A stretch of 33,883 nt of DNA from a virus. Under the pieces are notes generated by a model, which saw nothing but the letters and a program-made list of their open reading frames with translations, searched no databases and had not been told where the DNA came from. The stretch covers positions 1-33,883 of the IMG/VR virus record IMGVR_UViG_3300023240_000057, one strand, 5' to 3'. How positions within the stretch are numbered: the first letter of the stretch is position 1; every line of letters begins with the position of its first letter. This document shows, piece after piece, positions 2,264 to 33,883 of the stretch. Both the position numbers and the translations under genes were made by a program.

Positions 2264-4612
2264 TCAATCTTTTTGTAAAGGAACCAGCGTACATTTTATA
2301 GGGTAGCCCCCGATCCTCACTGTCCTACTACCTTCTGCGCCTGGGAGCCTTGCCAGGGCTGGCCCCCATTTTCTAGGATTGTTCGACTCCCTCATAAGTT
2401 TTGATAATTCAGCATGAACACTCGATACAGCTAATTTTTCTTCATACCAACGCAGGCCATAGCGTTGGAGCAGCGCGTCTTTTTCACCACCATCGGTATC
2501 TGCTACCTTGCTTGCCTCGATTATTTCACCGATTGACATAGATCGCCCACCCTCGACAATCCTCGATTGTAAAATGTAGGCTAGGCAATCAGTCTGATTG
2601 TTTTCCTTTATGTGAAAATCTTCATGGTTGAACTCTCGAACAACATTTTCTGCACTGTACCCCATGAAGGTAGTGTACCCTGCAAGCATAGTGCCGTATT
2701 GCTCCGCAAACCTAGCGTTGACCTTGATTCGCAGTGCATTAAATAATTCGTCCTTCATATCCAAAATTGCATGCACATTTTGGATTGCCCACGATCGCCA
2801 CCCTGATACAAAATCTTCCGTCAATATATCAAAAAGCTGATCCCTGATCCCTCCAGTCTCATTAAAAAAGTTCGCCTGATTCGGTATCAATTCCATTACC
2901 GTAAACCTATTTGCATCCTGCTCCAAATGTAGACCAACATTTACGGACGACACCGCTGCGCAAAACCTTACGTTATAGGACATCCCCTTGCCTGACGGCG
3001 TACCCTTGGCGACAAAAGACTTGCTTTCACTCGAAGCTTGCCGGAATAGCTCGACCACATTATCTACACGCCTAGCACTCGAGGCATCCGTTGTTTCATT
3101 CTCATCAAAAAGTAAGGGCATCGCACTAGCCCCAATAAGTTGGCGTATTCCTGCCTCAGTAGATCGGCCCATCACCTGGTAGCCTTCGATTACCTTGCCG
3201 ACAACCTCATTCATTACCGTGGTTTTACCCGACCCACTAGCGCCTGTGATCCAGATATGAGGTCGCCAAGGTAGCGCACCACAAACAGGAGCGACTGCGA
3301 GCCACCCAAATAAAAGCTTCGCACTGTCTGATTGCTTCCATGATAAGTTTTCCAAGAGCAGTAAAAACTCACCTACATCTGGTTTCTTTGTTTTAATGTG
3401 GGTGCCGATTGATCGGCCCTGTTGGTAGATATGCTTGCTGTCATAATCAGTTAGGTTTTTTTGCCCCTCATTAATTACTAAATGGTCGCCACAATTTACA
3501 ACAACATCTTTTCCATCAATCCAAACACCAGTGCCCCTTACACTATGGGGGTCGAAGTGGCCTTTGAGTCTACATAGATTCATGAGCGTATTGGTCGCAA
3601 GTTCAAGATTGAAGCTGGTTTTAGCTGGATAACGCGCTTCCCAAAAACCAAGATCACATAGTGAGAGGAGCGTGTGTTTGGTGAAGCCGGAGGCTGCGAT
3701 TCTTGTTATCTGTGGTTTCTGGTTTGAGATGAAATAGAAGTCGTCGCCATCATACCCCAAAGCTTTTATCATCGGCTGGCCTGCCTCATGCTCCTGTGGC
3801 GTATCAAGGGAGGCGACCTTCTCTAAAAAAATCTTCTTGGCTGCCTTCTTGCCGACCTCGACATATAGATCGTTCCAATCCTCGCCAACATCATCAGGCA
3901 AAACATACCTATAACCAAGGCAGGCTTTCCTCCCAGCCTCATCGTTGTCGCCTGCAATTATCGCATCAGGGAACTGCTTGGCTACATGCTTGACGTTCCC
4001 TGCGTCGAAGGCTACCAAAACAGTGCCCCCTGTCATCTCTGCAACACTTGCACCTGTAGAAAATCCCTCGGTGATATAAAGCGCCTTGCCCCCCTTTATC
4101 TTATAGAAGTGGCCTTTTTTAGCACAGCCGGTCTGGAAGAACTTTTTTCCATCGGCCCCTATATACTGCAATCCATGAATTTCGCCATCCTGGGATGAGA
4201 GGGTCAGGGTGATTCTACCCTTGGAAAGTTTAGCGCCGTGGGCCTGGATTTTCTTGCGCGCTAGGTAGGTATGTTTGACGACAGGGGGTAGGTTTGGCCA
4301 AAGATTGGTCGCCTCAAAAGCTGCTTGGTGGTATTTGAGCAATCGCAGCTCCTCAAATTCTTTGGTTTGCTTGTCTACCAAGTCATAGTCCGCCTTATTT
4401 AATGGCTCCTTTGAGTCAAAAATGAGTAGCGCCCCACCTTCCCTGTGGCTTCCATACTGAATAGCCTTAAAAGTGGTGTTATCCTTGCGCTTATTCAAAA
4501 AACCTACATACCAACCAGCTTTGTTGCCTTTCTTGCCCTCAAGGTCAAACCTGTGGATCTTATGGTCATATAATACCGTTCCAGTGAAGCCCATATCTAC
4601 CAATTCTTGCAT
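2264..4612 (-). CDS. Toprim primase fused to DUF927-type helicase
   Basis: This 782-residue protein combines two replication modules. Around residues 178-250 there is a Toprim-type active site: LYITEGFSTG with E182, then GDNDEAG with D222 and D224, then DWNDL. Residues about 285-700 form a DUF927-like ATPase with Walker A GASGSGKTT (457-465) and Walker B LLFDENE (500-506). Such fusions prime and unwind DNA at phage and plasmid origins. I see no N-terminal zinc-binding CHC2 finger, so template recognition may rely on another protein or on the short N-terminal domain. The gene is the first of the leftward operon and begins beside the repeat-rich region at 4613-5317, which fits an origin there. 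An AGGGT site precedes the ATG. Confidence 0.92.
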   Translation of the reverse strand: MQELVDMGFTGTVLYDHKIHRFDLEGKKGNKAGWYVGFLNKRKDNTTFKAIQYGSHREGGALLIFDSKEPLNKADYDLVDKQTKEFEELRLLKYHQAAFEATNLWPNLPPVVKHTYLARKKIQAHGAKLSKGRITLTLSSQDGEIHGLQYIGADGKKFFQTGCAKKGHFYKIKGGKALYITEGFSTGASVAEMTGGTVLVAFDAGNVKHVAKQFPDAIIAGDNDEAGRKACLGYRYVLPDDVGEDWNDLYVEVGKKAAKKIFLEKVASLDTPQEHEAGQPMIKALGYDGDDFYFISNQKPQITRIAASGFTKHTLLSLCDLGFWEARYPAKTSFNLELATNTLMNLCRLKGHFDPHSVRGTGVWIDGKDVVVNCGDHLVINEGQKNLTDYDSKHIYQQGRSIGTHIKTKKPDVGEFLLLLENLSWKQSDSAKLLFGWLAVAPVCGALPWRPHIWITGASGSGKTTVMNEVVGKVIEGYQVMGRSTEAGIRQLIGASAMPLLFDENETTDASSARRVDNVVELFRQASSESKSFVAKGTPSGKGMSYNVRFCAAVSSVNVGLHLEQDANRFTVMELIPNQANFFNETGGIRDQLFDILTEDFVSGWRSWAIQNVHAILDMKDELFNALRIKVNARFAEQYGTMLAGYTTFMGYSAENVVREFNHEDFHIKENNQTDCLAYILQSRIVEGGRSMSIGEIIEASKVADTDGGEKDALLQRYGLRWYEEKLAVSSVHAELSKLMRESNNPRKWGPALARLPGAEGSRTVRIGGYPIKCTLVPLQKD

Positions 4613-4679
4613 ATTCTACCCTGCTTTCTTTTTATGCCAGAGGATTGGATGTATATATCCCATCTCACTGGGTTTTTAT

Positions 4680-4708
4680 AAAGTAGGGCATTAGGTAAAA
4701 ATTGCCAA
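4680..4708 (-). promoter_or_regulatory. Candidate leftward sigma70-type promoter for the replication operon
   Basis: On the minus strand TTGGCA (complement of 4703-4708) is followed after exactly 17 bp by TACTTT (complement of 4680-4685). This is a reasonable -35/-10 pair about 70 bp upstream of the primase-helicase start. The -10 is not close to consensus, so the promoter may be weak or activator-dependent. Confidence 0.4.
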
Positions 4709-4782
4709 GTTTTAAGTATGAAAAAAATCGGCGGCGGCGTTACGTCCTAAAAGCACCTATAAAAACAGCCACTTAGAGGTAA

Positions 4783-5132
4783 AAAGAAACAAGGTTACAT
4801 AAACGTAACAGGAAAAGAAACGGCCCAAAATGGCAAAAACCATAATAATATCATGGACTTAGCTATTTTCAAAAACCCTTGTTACTAACTATTTATAAAA
4901 ATATATATTATATATACTATTTTTTTCTATCTATATCTATATATCTATATATCTGTACATAAATACGAAATGTAACAGCCCGCAAGTCCATCTTTTTTTT
5001 GTAAGTTGCTGATATTCCAGCTAAATCGGCGTGACATTCGGGTTTTTGAATTGTAACAAAATAGCTAAGTCTATGAAATTGCAGGGAAATATGGCGTTAC
5101 GCTATGGCAATAATAAAGAAACAAGGTTACAT
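4783..5132. repeat. 18-bp exact direct repeat pair
   Basis: AAAGAAACAAGGTTACAT occurs at 4783-4800 and again, identically, at 5115-5132. The spacing is 332 bp and both copies lie in the non-coding divergent region. Smaller blocks flank each copy in the same order, which suggests an old duplication or paired binding sites for an initiator or repressor. Confidence 0.9.
4851..5076. repeat. Interrupted inverted repeat around the AT-rich tract
   Basis: The left arm 4851-4878 and right arm 5040-5076 are inverted copies. The segment 4851-4869 pairs with 5058-5076 with one mismatch, and CAAAAACCC at 4870-4878 pairs with GGGTTTTTG at 5040-5048. The right arm carries a 9-bp insertion (TTGTAACAA region). 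The arms enclose the AT-rich stretch, so the unit could be a cruciform or a two-sided binding platform for DNA unwinding. Confidence 0.8.
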
Positions 5133-5244
5133 TCTGAGCAAGTGTGCCTAAAAATAGCTCATATTCTATGGTTTTGAGGCCCAAAAGCCACACAAAGCGC
5201 CTAACCACTGCTCAAAAAGCGTTCCTATTGGTTTCTTTTAGAGT

Positions 5245-5273
5245 TTGACATATAGGACAAAATGACCTATAAT
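5245..5273 (+). promoter_or_regulatory. Consensus sigma70 promoter with embedded palindromic operator
   Basis: TTGACA at 5245-5250 and TATAAT at 5268-5273 are separated by exactly 17 bp, a perfect consensus promoter. The spacer and the first bases of the -10 form a 21-bp imperfect palindrome at 5251-5271 with TATAGG/CCTATA arms. A protein bound there would exclude RNA polymerase, so the promoter is probably strong and repressible. It drives the rightward gene set from 5318. The regulator is unknown; the Xre-type protein at 6589-6771 is one candidate. Confidence 0.85.
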
Positions 5274-5279
5274 AGTACT

Positions 5280-5321
5280 ATGGAAGCAAAAAAAACAAAA
5301 AACAAAAGGAAGCAAAAATGA
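5280..5321 (+). CDS. Possible leaderless 13-codon lysine-rich ORF
   Basis: An ATG at 5280 opens a 13-residue frame reading MEAKKTKNKRKQK, whose TGA stop overlaps the ATG of the next gene at 5318. The -10 box ends at 5273, so the expected transcription start falls at about 5280, on or next to this ATG. If so the message would be leaderless. There is no room for a ribosome-binding site, and the sequence is A-rich, so chance is a serious alternative. Confidence 0.2.
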   Translation: MEAKKTKNKRKQK

Positions 5322-5590
5322 ATAATCAAGAAAAAGTAGATTTGATCGAAGCGTTGGTAATGGTTGATGATTTTAGTTTAATTTTAGACCTTAGCAGTGA
5401 CAGTGACAGTGACAGGGACAAGGTTTTGGGCTTGTGGGGTTTTATGGAAAACGGAATTACTGCAAAGGAATTTTTAGGAATTGTGGATGTTGGCCCCAAA
5501 GACACCTACAAGTGGATTTTAAAATATTATGAGGTTGAAGAATATGTTCAGCAGCACGCTAGTCAGCAGGTGGTTAGGGGGGCAAGATGA
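5318..5590 (+). CDS. Hypothetical acidic protein, first gene of the rightward operon
   Basis: This 90-residue protein starts at an ATG preceded by AAAGGA and lies directly downstream of the strong promoter at 5245-5273. It is rich in Asp and has an SDSDSD run at about residues 27-32 encoded by a short tandem repeat (GACAGT units near 5396-5420), a possible slippage site. The C-terminal half (KDTYKWILKYYEVEEYV) is predicted helical. I recognise no family. Its TGA overlaps the next start in an ATGA junction, indicating translational coupling. Position suggests early expression. Confidence 0.75.
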   Translation: MNNQEKVDLIEALVMVDDFSLILDLSSDSDSDRDKVLGLWGFMENGITAKEFLGIVDVGPKDTYKWILKYYEVEEYVQQHASQQVVRGAR

Positions 5591-14941: not shown

Positions 14942-16009
14942 ATGAATAAACTTAAAAACGATTCACCAGCAGCCGAACGATTCTACGGCCTCCATTTCGC
15001 ACCTGGCCTTGCTGAATACCAATACCCTGATGGTTCCAAACGTGTTTACATTAGTGAATCAACCGCAAAGACTATGAACAATAGCTTTGAGGGCAAACCT
15101 TTATACGTCGATCATATTGATGAAGTCACAGATAAAACATTTCAAGAGGCGGCAGGTTACGTTGTCAAATCTTTTTACAATGAAGCGGATGGCCACCACT
15201 GGGCTGAGTTTATTGTAACAACAAACGAGGGCAAAGACGCTATCAAGCGCGGCTTGCAACTTTCCAACGCATACTTTCCTACCGAAAAAGGCCAGGGCGG
15301 TGAATGGCATGGGATGGATTATGAAGAAGAAATTCTTGATGCAGAGTATGAACACTTGGCTATCGTGGGCAATCCACGGTATGCAGAAAGTGTAATTTAC
15401 ACACCAGAAGAGTTTAAGAAGTACAACGAGGATAAAAAAGTTGAACTTGGTATTCTCATGAACCAGAAGGAGAAAAAGGAAATGAAATTTAATATCTTTA
15501 AAAAAGAAAAAGTCAAAAACAGCGAAGAGCATGCAGGGTATGTATATGAGCTTCCGAAGAGTAAGGTTGAAGTCACCATTGAAGAAATGGTTGCGATCTC
15601 TGATTTGGTTAAGGTAAAAAATGCCGATGACTATGAAGTGTCGTATGAAGAAATGGTAAACGTGGACGGAGAATCTGTTTCAGTTGAAAAACTTGTAGAG
15701 TGCTACAAAGCTTCAACCGACATGGTTGTTGAGGAAGACGCTGCCATGGAAAATGAAGACGACGACAAAGACAAAGACGACAAAGCGGAAAACATGGATG
15801 AGGACGACAAAGACGAAGACAAATCTGAAAATGAAGACGAAGTTGAAGTTGAAGTCGAAATTGAAGATGAAGATGATGATGAAGATAAAAAAGAAAACAC
15901 CATCAAAAGTTTGAAAGATGCAAGTCGCAAAATTTCAAAGGTAGAACGTAAAACAATTGATCTTATGCACAACAAAATTGGGCGCGGAAACGCTCGTTAC
16001 GGTTCATAG
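14942..16009 (+). CDS. DUF2213-like prohead protease with acidic scaffold tail
   Basis: The first 160 residues of this 355-residue protein resemble a DUF2213/prohead-protease domain. LYVDHIDE (about 54-61), LSNAYFP (about 102-108) and EHLAIVGNPR (about 138-147) lie where the His, Ser and conserved strand of the HK97-type protease fold occur. Residues about 180-355 include a very acidic Asp/Glu/Lys-rich stretch (about 262-320) followed by a basic end, typical of scaffold proteins. Protease-scaffold fusions shape the shell and are then cleaved. A strong internal ribosome-binding site and ATG at 15482 could release the scaffold separately. The catalytic residues are inferred by pattern. Confidence 0.82.
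   Translation: MNKLKNDSPAAERFYGLHFAPGLAEYQYPDGSKRVYISESTAKTMNNSFEGKPLYVDHIDEVTDKTFQEAAGYVVKSFYNEADGHHWAEFIVTTNEGKDAIKRGLQLSNAYFPTEKGQGGEWHGMDYEEEILDAEYEHLAIVGNPRYAESVIYTPEEFKKYNEDKKVELGILMNQKEKKEMKFNIFKKEKVKNSEEHAGYVYELPKSKVEVTIEEMVAISDLVKVKNADDYEVSYEEMVNVDGESVSVEKLVECYKASTDMVVEEDAAMENEDDDKDKDDKAENMDEDDKDEDKSENEDEVEVEVEIEDEDDDEDKKENTIKSLKDASRKISKVERKTIDLMHNKIGRGNARYGS
15482..16009 (+). CDS. Candidate nested scaffold protein (internal start)
   Basis: Within the protease-scaffold frame, AGAAGGAG at 15465-15472 precedes an in-frame ATG at 15482 by 9 nt. Translation from there gives 175 residues, starting MKFNIFKKEK, that cover exactly the acidic scaffold region. Nested scaffold genes within capsid-protease genes are known in lambda-like phages (C/Nu3). 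The ribosome-binding site is better than that of most genes here; expression itself is inferred. Confidence 0.5.
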   Translation: MKFNIFKKEKVKNSEEHAGYVYELPKSKVEVTIEEMVAISDLVKVKNADDYEVSYEEMVNVDGESVSVEKLVECYKASTDMVVEEDAAMENEDDDKDKDDKAENMDEDDKDEDKSENEDEVEVEVEIEDEDDDEDKKENTIKSLKDASRKISKVERKTIDLMHNKIGRGNARYGS

Positions 16010-33257: not shown

Positions 33258-33434
33258 TTGTAAATAGTTTTCAATATTTGTATCAAACCTAGTCATTTTT
33301 GATATTTTTTCTATATCCAAATTAAATTCATTTATATACCTAGCCCCTTTAAATGCAGGTACTGTACTTTGCTTCATCTCCACCTTATAGACACTGTACT
33401 GCTTATCTTCTTTTACAACCACATATTGCTTCAC
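33222..33434 (-). CDS. Hypothetical small protein, distal gene of the leftward right-end operon
   Basis: This 70-residue protein starts at GTG 33434 in a GTGA overlap with the stop of the six-cysteine gene, so it is translationally coupled to it. It is soluble-looking with mixed charge (QYVVVKEDKQYSVYKVEMKQ, then NLDIEKISKMTRFD). I recognise no family. Coupling to a secreted miniprotein would suit an immunity, inhibitor or regulator role, but that is speculation. It converges with the lysis operon. Confidence 0.65.
   Translation of the reverse strand: MKQYVVVKEDKQYSVYKVEMKQSTVPAFKGARYINEFNLDIEKISKMTRFDTNIENYLQSLPPKLDKDNA
33281..33310 (+). terminator. Weak candidate terminator for the lysis operon
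   Basis: TATCAAA at 33281-33287 pairs with TTTGATA at 33298-33304 across a 10-nt loop, and six Ts follow. Stability would be low (one G-C pair in the stem). It lies inside the converging minus-strand gene, just past the last rightward frame. Confidence 0.3.
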
Positions 33435-33604
33435 TTGACTTCAATCGGGTAGTCATAAGGGCAATATTGGTAGTCACACTTAGTGATGCACTGTAGCCCC
33501 TTATAGTCACGTTTACAGCACTGCTTGGTTTGATAGCAAGCATATGCACTACCTATCGCTATCAATATCGCTATCACTGCTACTGTTATTAATTTATTTT
33601 TCAT
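33431..33604 (-). CDS. Secreted six-cysteine miniprotein precursor
   Basis: The ATG at 33604 is preferred over the upstream ATG at 33616, because it sits at the same position after the repeated leader (GGAAAG, then TAAA) as the starts of the array minigenes. The 57-residue product has a Sec-type signal peptide (KNKLITVAVIAILIAIGSA) with a likely AYA cleavage site. The mature part is about 35 residues with six Cys spaced C-x5-CC-x8-C-x3-C-x4-C. Such content suggests a disulfide-rich periplasmic or exported peptide. No known family is recognised. It is downstream of the minigene array and overlaps the next gene by 4 nt. Confidence 0.75.
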   Translation of the reverse strand: MKNKLITVAVIAILIAIGSAYACYQTKQCCKRDYKGLQCITKCDYQYCPYDYPIEVK

Positions 33605-33624
33605 TTTACTTTCCATTTCGTGTG

Positions 33625-33693
33625 TTACCCAGCCCTAGTCCCAGACCAAGCCCTAGCCCTAGACCTAACAACATTTAAGTGTGCTAAGTTCAT
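33625..33693 (-). CDS. Array minigene A, Arg/Ser/Ala dipeptide-repeat peptide
   Basis: On the minus strand the leader provides GGGAAAG and an ATG (complement of 33691-33693). The frame reads MNLAHLNV followed by VRSRARAWSGTRAG and stops at TAA 33625-33627. It has 22 residues, as does minigene B. The stop codon lies in the leader of the next downstream gene. The opposite strand also has an open frame here, so coding is not proven. Confidence 0.45.
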   Translation of the reverse strand: MNLAHLNVVRSRARAWSGTRAG

Positions 33694-33713
33694 TTTACTT
33701 TCCCTTTCGTGTG

Positions 33714-33782
33714 TTACCTAGACCAAGTCCTAGCCCTAGACCTAGACCTAGACCTAGCAACATTTAAGTGTGCTAAGTTCAT
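33714..33782 (-). CDS. Array minigene B, Arg/Ser dipeptide-repeat peptide
   Basis: This has the same architecture as minigene A: leader with GGGAAAG, ATG (complement of 33780-33782), MNLAHLNV followed by ARSRSRSRARTWSR, and TAA at 33714-33716. It has 22 residues with eight arginines. The first eight codons are identical to those of minigene A, whereas the repeat part differs by first-base changes in codons. The peptide would be strongly basic and could bind nucleic acid. Confidence 0.45.
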   Translation of the reverse strand: MNLAHLNVARSRSRSRARTWSR

Positions 33783-33802
33783 TTTACTTTCCCTTTCGTG
33801 TG

Positions 33803-33883
33803 TTACCCAGCCCTAGACCAAGACATAGCCCTAGACCAAGACCTAGACCCAGACCTAGCCCTAGACCTAGACCTAGACCCAGA
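33803..33883 (-). CDS. Array minigene C, partial (runs off window)
   Basis: The frame enters from the window edge and ends at TAA 33803-33805, the same leader position as the other copies. At least 26 codons are open: alternating Ser/Ala with Arg/Gly/Trp, including one Met. The hexamer run is longer than in A or B, so copy length varies between units. The start lies outside the window. Confidence 0.4.
   Translation of the reverse strand, partial: SGSRSRSRARSGSRSWSRAMSWSRAG

Follow-up and report, generated by a model that had tools for sequence, protein, structure and literature searches.

In eukaryotes, Arg-rich low-complexity tails form part of several Sm/LSm proteins or act together with them. 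Peptides built from Arg and Gly on a sticker-spacer plan, with aromatic residues, form condensates with RNA (PMC8595643). For phages, a search on Sm-like proteins, dipeptide repeats and condensates, confined to literature other than preprints and most subscription journals, returned no description of the module presented here. The first-pass annotation of this DNA knew of no phage system of the kind, which fits the lack of any match in Pfam, PHROGs, NCBIfam or the literature searched. We found no earlier description of the pair formed by an Sm-like gene and an array gene, and treat it as a previously unnamed module.

The DNA under study, called the window below, is the whole of IMG/VR record IMGVR_UViG_3300023240_000057 (33,883 bases, classed as linear). 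Judged by its portal protein (49% identity), the nearest isolate is Bdellovibrio phage phi1422, which has no array of this type. At the right edge of the window (33602-33883, minus strand), three consecutive 89-bp units make up two complete minigenes and one that is open to the contig edge (Table 1). Tandem Repeats Finder places the repeat at 33600-33846, with a period of 89 bp and 2.8 copies, and the hexamer arrays are nested within it. Each unit runs from a leader with AAAGGGAAAG and an ATG, through a short hexamer run, to a TAA, which follows the final hexamer directly in all three. The leader, ACACACGAAA[G/T]GGAAAGTAAAATG, has three minus-strand copies in the window and none in shuffled sequence; together with the 89-bp repeat, this search confirms the tandem minus-strand units and their common leader with a ribosome-binding site and an ATG. 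Units A and B do read MNLAHLNV followed by 14 alternating residues and a TAA, as first described, except that the array opens with Val or Ala; unit C is indeed open to the edge, with the small correction that it contains one Met. The second codon of the dipeptide (X in what follows) is NGG throughout the window's arrays, bar one ATG, and Ala or Thr replaces some of the Ser residues. Over their 89 bp, units A and B show nine differences, every one within the array, and their first 48 bases, the leader, are identical. The gene downstream gave no match in a Pfam and PHROGs scan from an alternative start at 33616. Elsewhere in the window, the protein predicted at 14942-16009 has a repeat rich in Asp, Glu and Lys (15756-15886) close to its C-terminus.

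Table 1. Features at the right end of the window
Feature	Position	Strand	Description
Unit C, partial	33803..33883	-	at least 13 dipeptides (SGSRSRSRARSGSRSWSRAMSWSRAG), then TAA; start past the contig edge
Leader of unit B	33780..33803	-	Shine-Dalgarno-like AAAGGGAAAG and ATG; exact copy; 0 in shuffles
Unit B minigene	33714..33782	-	22 aa, MNLAHLNV-ARSRSRSRARTWSR; TAA at array end; full reading MNLAHLNVARSRSRSRARTWSR*
Leader starting unit A	33691..33714	-	exact copy; 0 in shuffles
Unit A minigene	33625..33693	-	22 aa, MNLAHLNV-VRSRARAWSGTRAG; TAA; full reading MNLAHLNVVRSRARAWSGTRAG*
Third leader copy	33602..33625	-	one change; starts the downstream gene; from leader search; 0 in shuffles
Downstream gene, same direction	33431..33604	-	MKNKLITVAV..., 57 aa; hydrophobic N-terminal stretch, Cys-rich remainder
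Rival +1 frame over unit B	33695..33763	-	MLLGLGLGLGLGLGLGNTRKGK; ATG without clear Shine-Dalgarno
Rival +1 frame over unit A	33606..33674	-	MLLGLGLGLGLGLGLGNTRNGK

The exact leader of the window has no other occurrence in IMG/VR, and the hexamer pattern is present in at least 120 viral contigs. Restricting the set to TCT-type arrays whose fourth base varies left 242 distinct (TCTNGG)n arrays from 127 loci, which are partly redundant and come from short-read assemblies; ACT/GCT hexamer matches were excluded, as they partly look like Pro-Ser linkers read from the opposite strand. In these arrays, hexamer positions 1, 2, 3, 5 and 6 are constant at 89-98%, and A, G and T share position 4 about equally. 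The most constant position is the third base of the Ser codon (97.8% T, and 99.9% in strict arrays). ATGs within 60 nt upstream of the 242 arrays number 259 in the Ser frame versus 44 and 49 in the other frames, and those preceded by a Shine-Dalgarno sequence 78 versus 9 and 2. A Ser-frame stop lies within 30 nt past the array end in 221 of 236 cases, at a median of 6 nt. Because upstream ATGs, Shine-Dalgarno-preceded starts and nearby stops all favour it, we take the Ser frame as the translated one.

The window array quite probably belongs to this family of phage (S[R/W/G])n arrays with an Sm-like partner. It has the leader-array-stop design, NGG codons and tandem units that are common in the family, and departs from most arrays in the variable first hexamer position (giving Ser, Ala or Thr), the shortness of its arrays and the excess of Arg over Trp. 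Several phages have at least six tandem units. The largest tandem arrays, with a common leader in each, comprise about 15 successive minigenes in contig L201 (5508-8415) and about nine in L096 (1569-4111). Among the closest phage relatives found, identified through the tail sheath (L304-L306), the sequence stops short of the array. A search for synteny relatives by primase found none, and the endolysin is too common to serve; the contig with the nearest endolysin, L003, has 129-bp repeats in a predicted repeat protein (2995-5447).

Could the window phage instead code in the +1 frame? Its arrays would then specify small peptides of Leu-Gly repeats (MLLGLGLG...NTRKGK), which may be membrane peptides ending in a basic tail. 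Both complete units hold this frame open, with an ATG of its own, and none of the nine A/B differences alters its amino acids, whereas in the Ser frame each of them is nonsynonymous. However, at position 4 such synonymy holds for any TCT array. The ATG of this frame has no clear Shine-Dalgarno sequence, whereas the Ser-frame ATG has one, in common with the downstream gene. Among the related arrays, the upstream ATGs counted above (259 to 44) favour the Ser frame, and relatives with other Ser codons would read Arg-Gly, Ala-Gly, Gly-Gln/His or Val-Gly, so that the product they keep is not that of this frame. We regard Leu-Gly coding as an improbable, minor rival that concerns the window only; at the level of the family, the other codon classes settle the matter.

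Clustering of the proteins encoded around the arrays identified an unnamed protein of 85-120 residues near the array in 83 of the 127 loci. Its gene lies on the same strand as the array and mostly ends 20-50 nt upstream. The family comprises two subfamilies, for one of which 156 relatives were found, and the array starts less than 150 nt downstream in 77 hits of the family. A search with this partner protein alone yielded 80 loci, 73 of which are followed, within 420 nt, by an array that alternates Ser and X; among the remainder, two end at a contig edge and some have very short arrays. By comparison, an (S-[R/W/G])n array was present in 21 of 1460 control stretches (1.4%). The ATG or GTG of the array gene overlaps the partner stop codon in many loci (AAATGA, AAGTGA). 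Leader peptides of the kind M(I)RG(L/K)KQK(Y/W) are common to array genes, with RG[L/K]KQK[Y/W] kept across loci; codon differences in this leader are in excess at position 3 (814 versus 354 and 327), with 575 synonymous differences and 335 nonsynonymous ones. A detectable Sm-like gene is absent from about 16-20 of the 127 array loci despite the presence of upstream sequence; L201 and L115 have no detectable partner, though their upstream sequence is present.

Searching the rest of the window with the partner family revealed no Sm-like gene. The contig ends inside unit C, and the Sm-like gene of the window phage is predicted to lie just past the right edge, its normal place. Several other contigs end less than 200 nt behind the Sm-like gene (L307, L310, L311, L331, L332, L336, L342, L345, L346 and L362). 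Assemblies seem to break inside the arrays, which are probably under-counted. None of 50,697 records of isolate phages contains the module, and only two uncultured phage records carry it, MW202825 and MW202573 (Manatee Spring). In MW202825 (L302, 5395-6010), the deposited annotation lacks the Sm-like gene and the first array, and covers a second array in part, as a hypothetical protein.

Two AlphaFold models of the partner are confident small barrels (pLDDT 90.6 and 87.8) with the N-terminal helix and five-stranded bent barrel of the Sm fold. When the first model was compared with the PDB by Foldseek, the 50 matches listed were all Sm/LSm proteins or spliceosomal Sm subunits (best E 3.9e-4); those of the second were mostly LSm domains, the best including Tral and LSM14. 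The partner is therefore predicted to have an Sm/LSm fold. Its stretch YTGKLVGVNDTCVLLEDA looks like the Sm1 motif, and GRGAIVD like Sm2. Sequence searches of Pfam, PHROGs, NCBIfam and PDB sequences gave no significant match, the best hit of the Pfam LSM profile (E 0.021, 14.9 bits, below the cut-off of 23.4) involving one of 27 members.

Is it the protein or the DNA that is kept in these arrays? The dominant Ser codon in 145 partner-array pairs is TCT in 90, TCG in 37, AGC in 9, TCA in 7 and AGT in 2, and is usually uniform within one array; Arg is mostly AGG in AT-rich phages and CGG in GC-rich ones. Every Ser-codon class has similar shares at X (R 22-32%, W 27-31%, G 31-39%), with NGG codons in about 85-96% of dipeptides. 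On the partner tree, which is weakly resolved and has few columns, the Ser-codon class changes about 33 times. One array (L349, 2770-3168), with an ordinary Sm-like partner upstream, consists of TCG-NNC hexamers in which Ser alternates with Tyr, Arg, Gly, His and Cys: Tyr stands for Trp, and the aromatic, Arg and Gly residues are kept, but with neither Trp nor NGG codons. With five Ser codons, two Arg codons and one NNC variant, the carriers have no nucleotide motif in common. Across the codon classes, a six-frame comparison reveals common amino acids in the Ser frame only. Since five Ser codons occur with similar R/W/G shares, and Tyr once takes the place of Trp, what these comparisons show to be kept is the protein, rather than the opposite strand or a motif in the DNA.

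The first-pass annotation had left open whether either strand, both, or a nucleotide-level motif was under selection, and had proposed comparing the array among related phages. That comparison, over five Ser codons, largely answers the question: amino acids are kept in the Ser frame while the other five frames change, which speaks for Ser-frame coding and supports neither a Pro-Arg/Ser product nor a motif of DNA alone. The plus-strand frame at 33544-33678 is open, as reported, but its Pro-Ser/Arg stretch is simply the complement of the array. The evidence supports the central proposal, a minus-strand array of tandem minigenes for dipeptide-repeat microproteins; the Sm-like partner gene lay outside what that annotation could see.

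A puzzle lies in the TCT arrays, where the synonymous third base is nearly invariant and the nonsynonymous fourth base is free. This same constancy of the Ser third base, with a free position 4, would be expected if TCTNGG repeats were selected as DNA or RNA, as a binding site or a structure, and translation were incidental. Phages with the same partner nevertheless use TCG, TCA, AGC or AGT hexamers, which have no such motif in common; the starts, stops and leaders point to translation; and an Rfam search of the window's end gave no family match. We judge this reading very improbable. Still, selection on the protein does not by itself give mostly NGG codons at X and a uniform Ser codon within an array; some process that homogenises the repeats, or a constraint on the nucleotides, is needed as well. 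The prevalence of NGG in every Ser-codon class could also suggest that the codons themselves act, runs of NGG sequestering tRNAs or causing ribosome drop-off and so shutting down host translation. Yet L349 keeps Ser-[aromatic/Arg/Gly] with NNC codons, a tRNA sink would need neither conserved leader peptides nor coupling to a partner, and NGG follows from the single codon of Trp, of which Arg and Gly are one-step neighbours; we give codon action equally little credence. TGG, as the sole Trp codon with first-base neighbours for Arg and Gly, could together with block duplication explain both NGG and uniform Ser without a DNA motif.

Such block changes are seen directly in carriers of identical partners, whose arrays differ by 7, 8 or 15 whole hexamers with hardly any substitution; the earlier remark that hexamer number leaves the frame intact holds for these pairs. 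Repeated words in the arrays exceed those in shuffles, and at fixed spacings R, W and G follow one another in random order. Because only position 4 varies, DGR-type adenine mutagenesis acting on a (TCTAGG)n template was weighed; it was rejected, as C is nearly missing at that position, GC-rich phages have CGG in place of AGG, and blocks make up most of the difference between close pairs. RNA self-pairing (U3 with A, G or U at position 4) was rejected since L096 and L302 have CGG after TCT, and PAM-decoy or chi-like arrays found no support.

Neutral microsatellite growth, or an assembly artefact at a contig end, would account for an array that sits at the contig edge, as do the arrays of several related contigs. 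However, the same arrays are found inside long contigs and behind the same gene (73 of the 80 loci above), they differ by blocks, and their Arg/Trp/Gly shares are similar across codon classes. A stricter 36-base S-type pattern is furthermore present in 3 contigs, all of them MAGs, in 257 Gb of prokaryote genomes, versus at least 120 viral contigs. We consider an artefact or neutral origin the least probable of the readings discussed here. The three matches from genome collections (L203, L204 and L205) are Patescibacteria, Halanaerobiales and Thaumarchaeota MAG contigs; L203 also has an Sm-like gene, and all three are possibly mis-binned phage contigs.

What might such a module do? Reading frame, linkage, start/stop overlap, composition and block evolution can be taken from the sequences themselves. 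The units of the window are best read as real minus-strand genes translated in the Ser frame, whose low-complexity product, strongly cationic and aromatic, consists of a short leader and then (Ser/Ala/Thr-[Arg/Trp/Gly])n. They would be members, or close likenesses, of a widespread phage module whose array gene stands directly behind an Sm-like gene and is often translationally coupled to it. The array grows and shrinks by whole-hexamer blocks, its frame never broken, and is kept family-wide near equal Arg, Trp and Gly on a Ser background. The repeat proteins contain 47.5% Ser, 16.5% Gly, 14.5% Arg and 13.8% Trp, with about +14 charges per 100 residues and a median of 27 dipeptides. This is a sticker-spacer make-up, with Arg and aromatic stickers and Gly/Ser spacers, and would offer multivalent Arg (cation) and Trp/Tyr (aromatic) contacts. 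Coupling to a predicted Sm fold, together with recurrent neighbours that encode primase, DNA polymerase, ThyX, dCMP deaminase and ribonucleotide reductase, points to nucleic-acid work during replication. We guess that the repeat protein would bind RNA or ssDNA and, with the Sm-like protein, assemble a phage ribonucleoprotein (RNP) or condensate in the replication phase. Taken as a whole, from Ser-frame genes through the Sm-like partner to this assembly, the account is the best explanation we have, with a little less than an even chance of being right; an RNP or condensate scaffold, considered as a role in itself, is possible, with the balance tilted against it.

The main rival to such a scaffold is a cationic, Trp-rich peptide that inhibits the host, by acting on membranes or poisoning a machine, with the Sm-like protein regulating or sequestering the peptide or its mRNA. 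Arg/Trp-rich antimicrobial peptides resemble the repeat protein in composition and in charge (+14 per 100 residues), and the small size, the leader-plus-array design and the tight coupling to a regulator-like gene would also suit this role. On the other hand, Ser at alternate sites and Gly at one-third of the X positions make a poor amphipathic surface, the random order of R, W and G at fixed spacings argues against a shaped membrane peptide, and the recurrent neighbours are replication genes, not lysis genes. Host inhibition is in our opinion unlikely, and the RNP or condensate scaffold remains our preferred interpretation.

Among environmental phages the module is common, with at least 120 contigs for one codon type, yet the family libraries gave no match to it. 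It has probably been overlooked because its repeats interrupt short-read assemblies and its low-complexity ORFs are passed over by gene finders. The module provides a natural series of near-minimal low-complexity proteins, with variants in codon, length and sticker, tied to one folded partner; whether phages use dedicated condensate or RNP scaffolds thereby becomes directly testable.

How does the module compare with known systems? Its arrays share Ser-Arg dipeptides with the serine/arginine (SR) repeat domains, but Trp and Gly are as frequent in them as Arg, and there is no eukaryotic kinase system. FUS-type regions and designed [RGXGG]n peptides (PMC8595643) likewise combine Arg and aromatic stickers with Gly/Ser spacers, and Tyr can replace Trp in phage arrays (L349). 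In contrast to these, the phage arrays are strictly Ser-X, with nearly all Trp and not Tyr, and typically form free-standing genes of 20-32 dipeptides. On the partner side, the BFVD structural match of the model to A0A6J5KRP8 (E 8.8e-5) indicates a likeness to phage DUF6948 and similar predicted small barrels, although identity is only 17% and Pfam scans of the partner did not find DUF6948. With the Sm/LSm proteins (Lsm1-7, archaeal SmAP, Hfq), the likeness is the predicted Sm fold of the partner, which has no significant sequence match to Pfam LSM or PDB sequences. The most far-reaching reading, and a somewhat doubtful one, is that in many uncultured tailed phages an Sm-fold protein and one or more translationally coupled, fast-evolving minigenes for nearly pure (Ser-[Arg/aromatic/Gly])n polypeptides jointly form an RNA granule or a condensate for replication, as a phage counterpart of the eukaryotic Sm-plus-Arg-rich-tail arrangement. 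Unlike in Sm/LSm proteins, the low-complexity part is here a separate and sometimes tandemly duplicated gene, and the module resides in phages.
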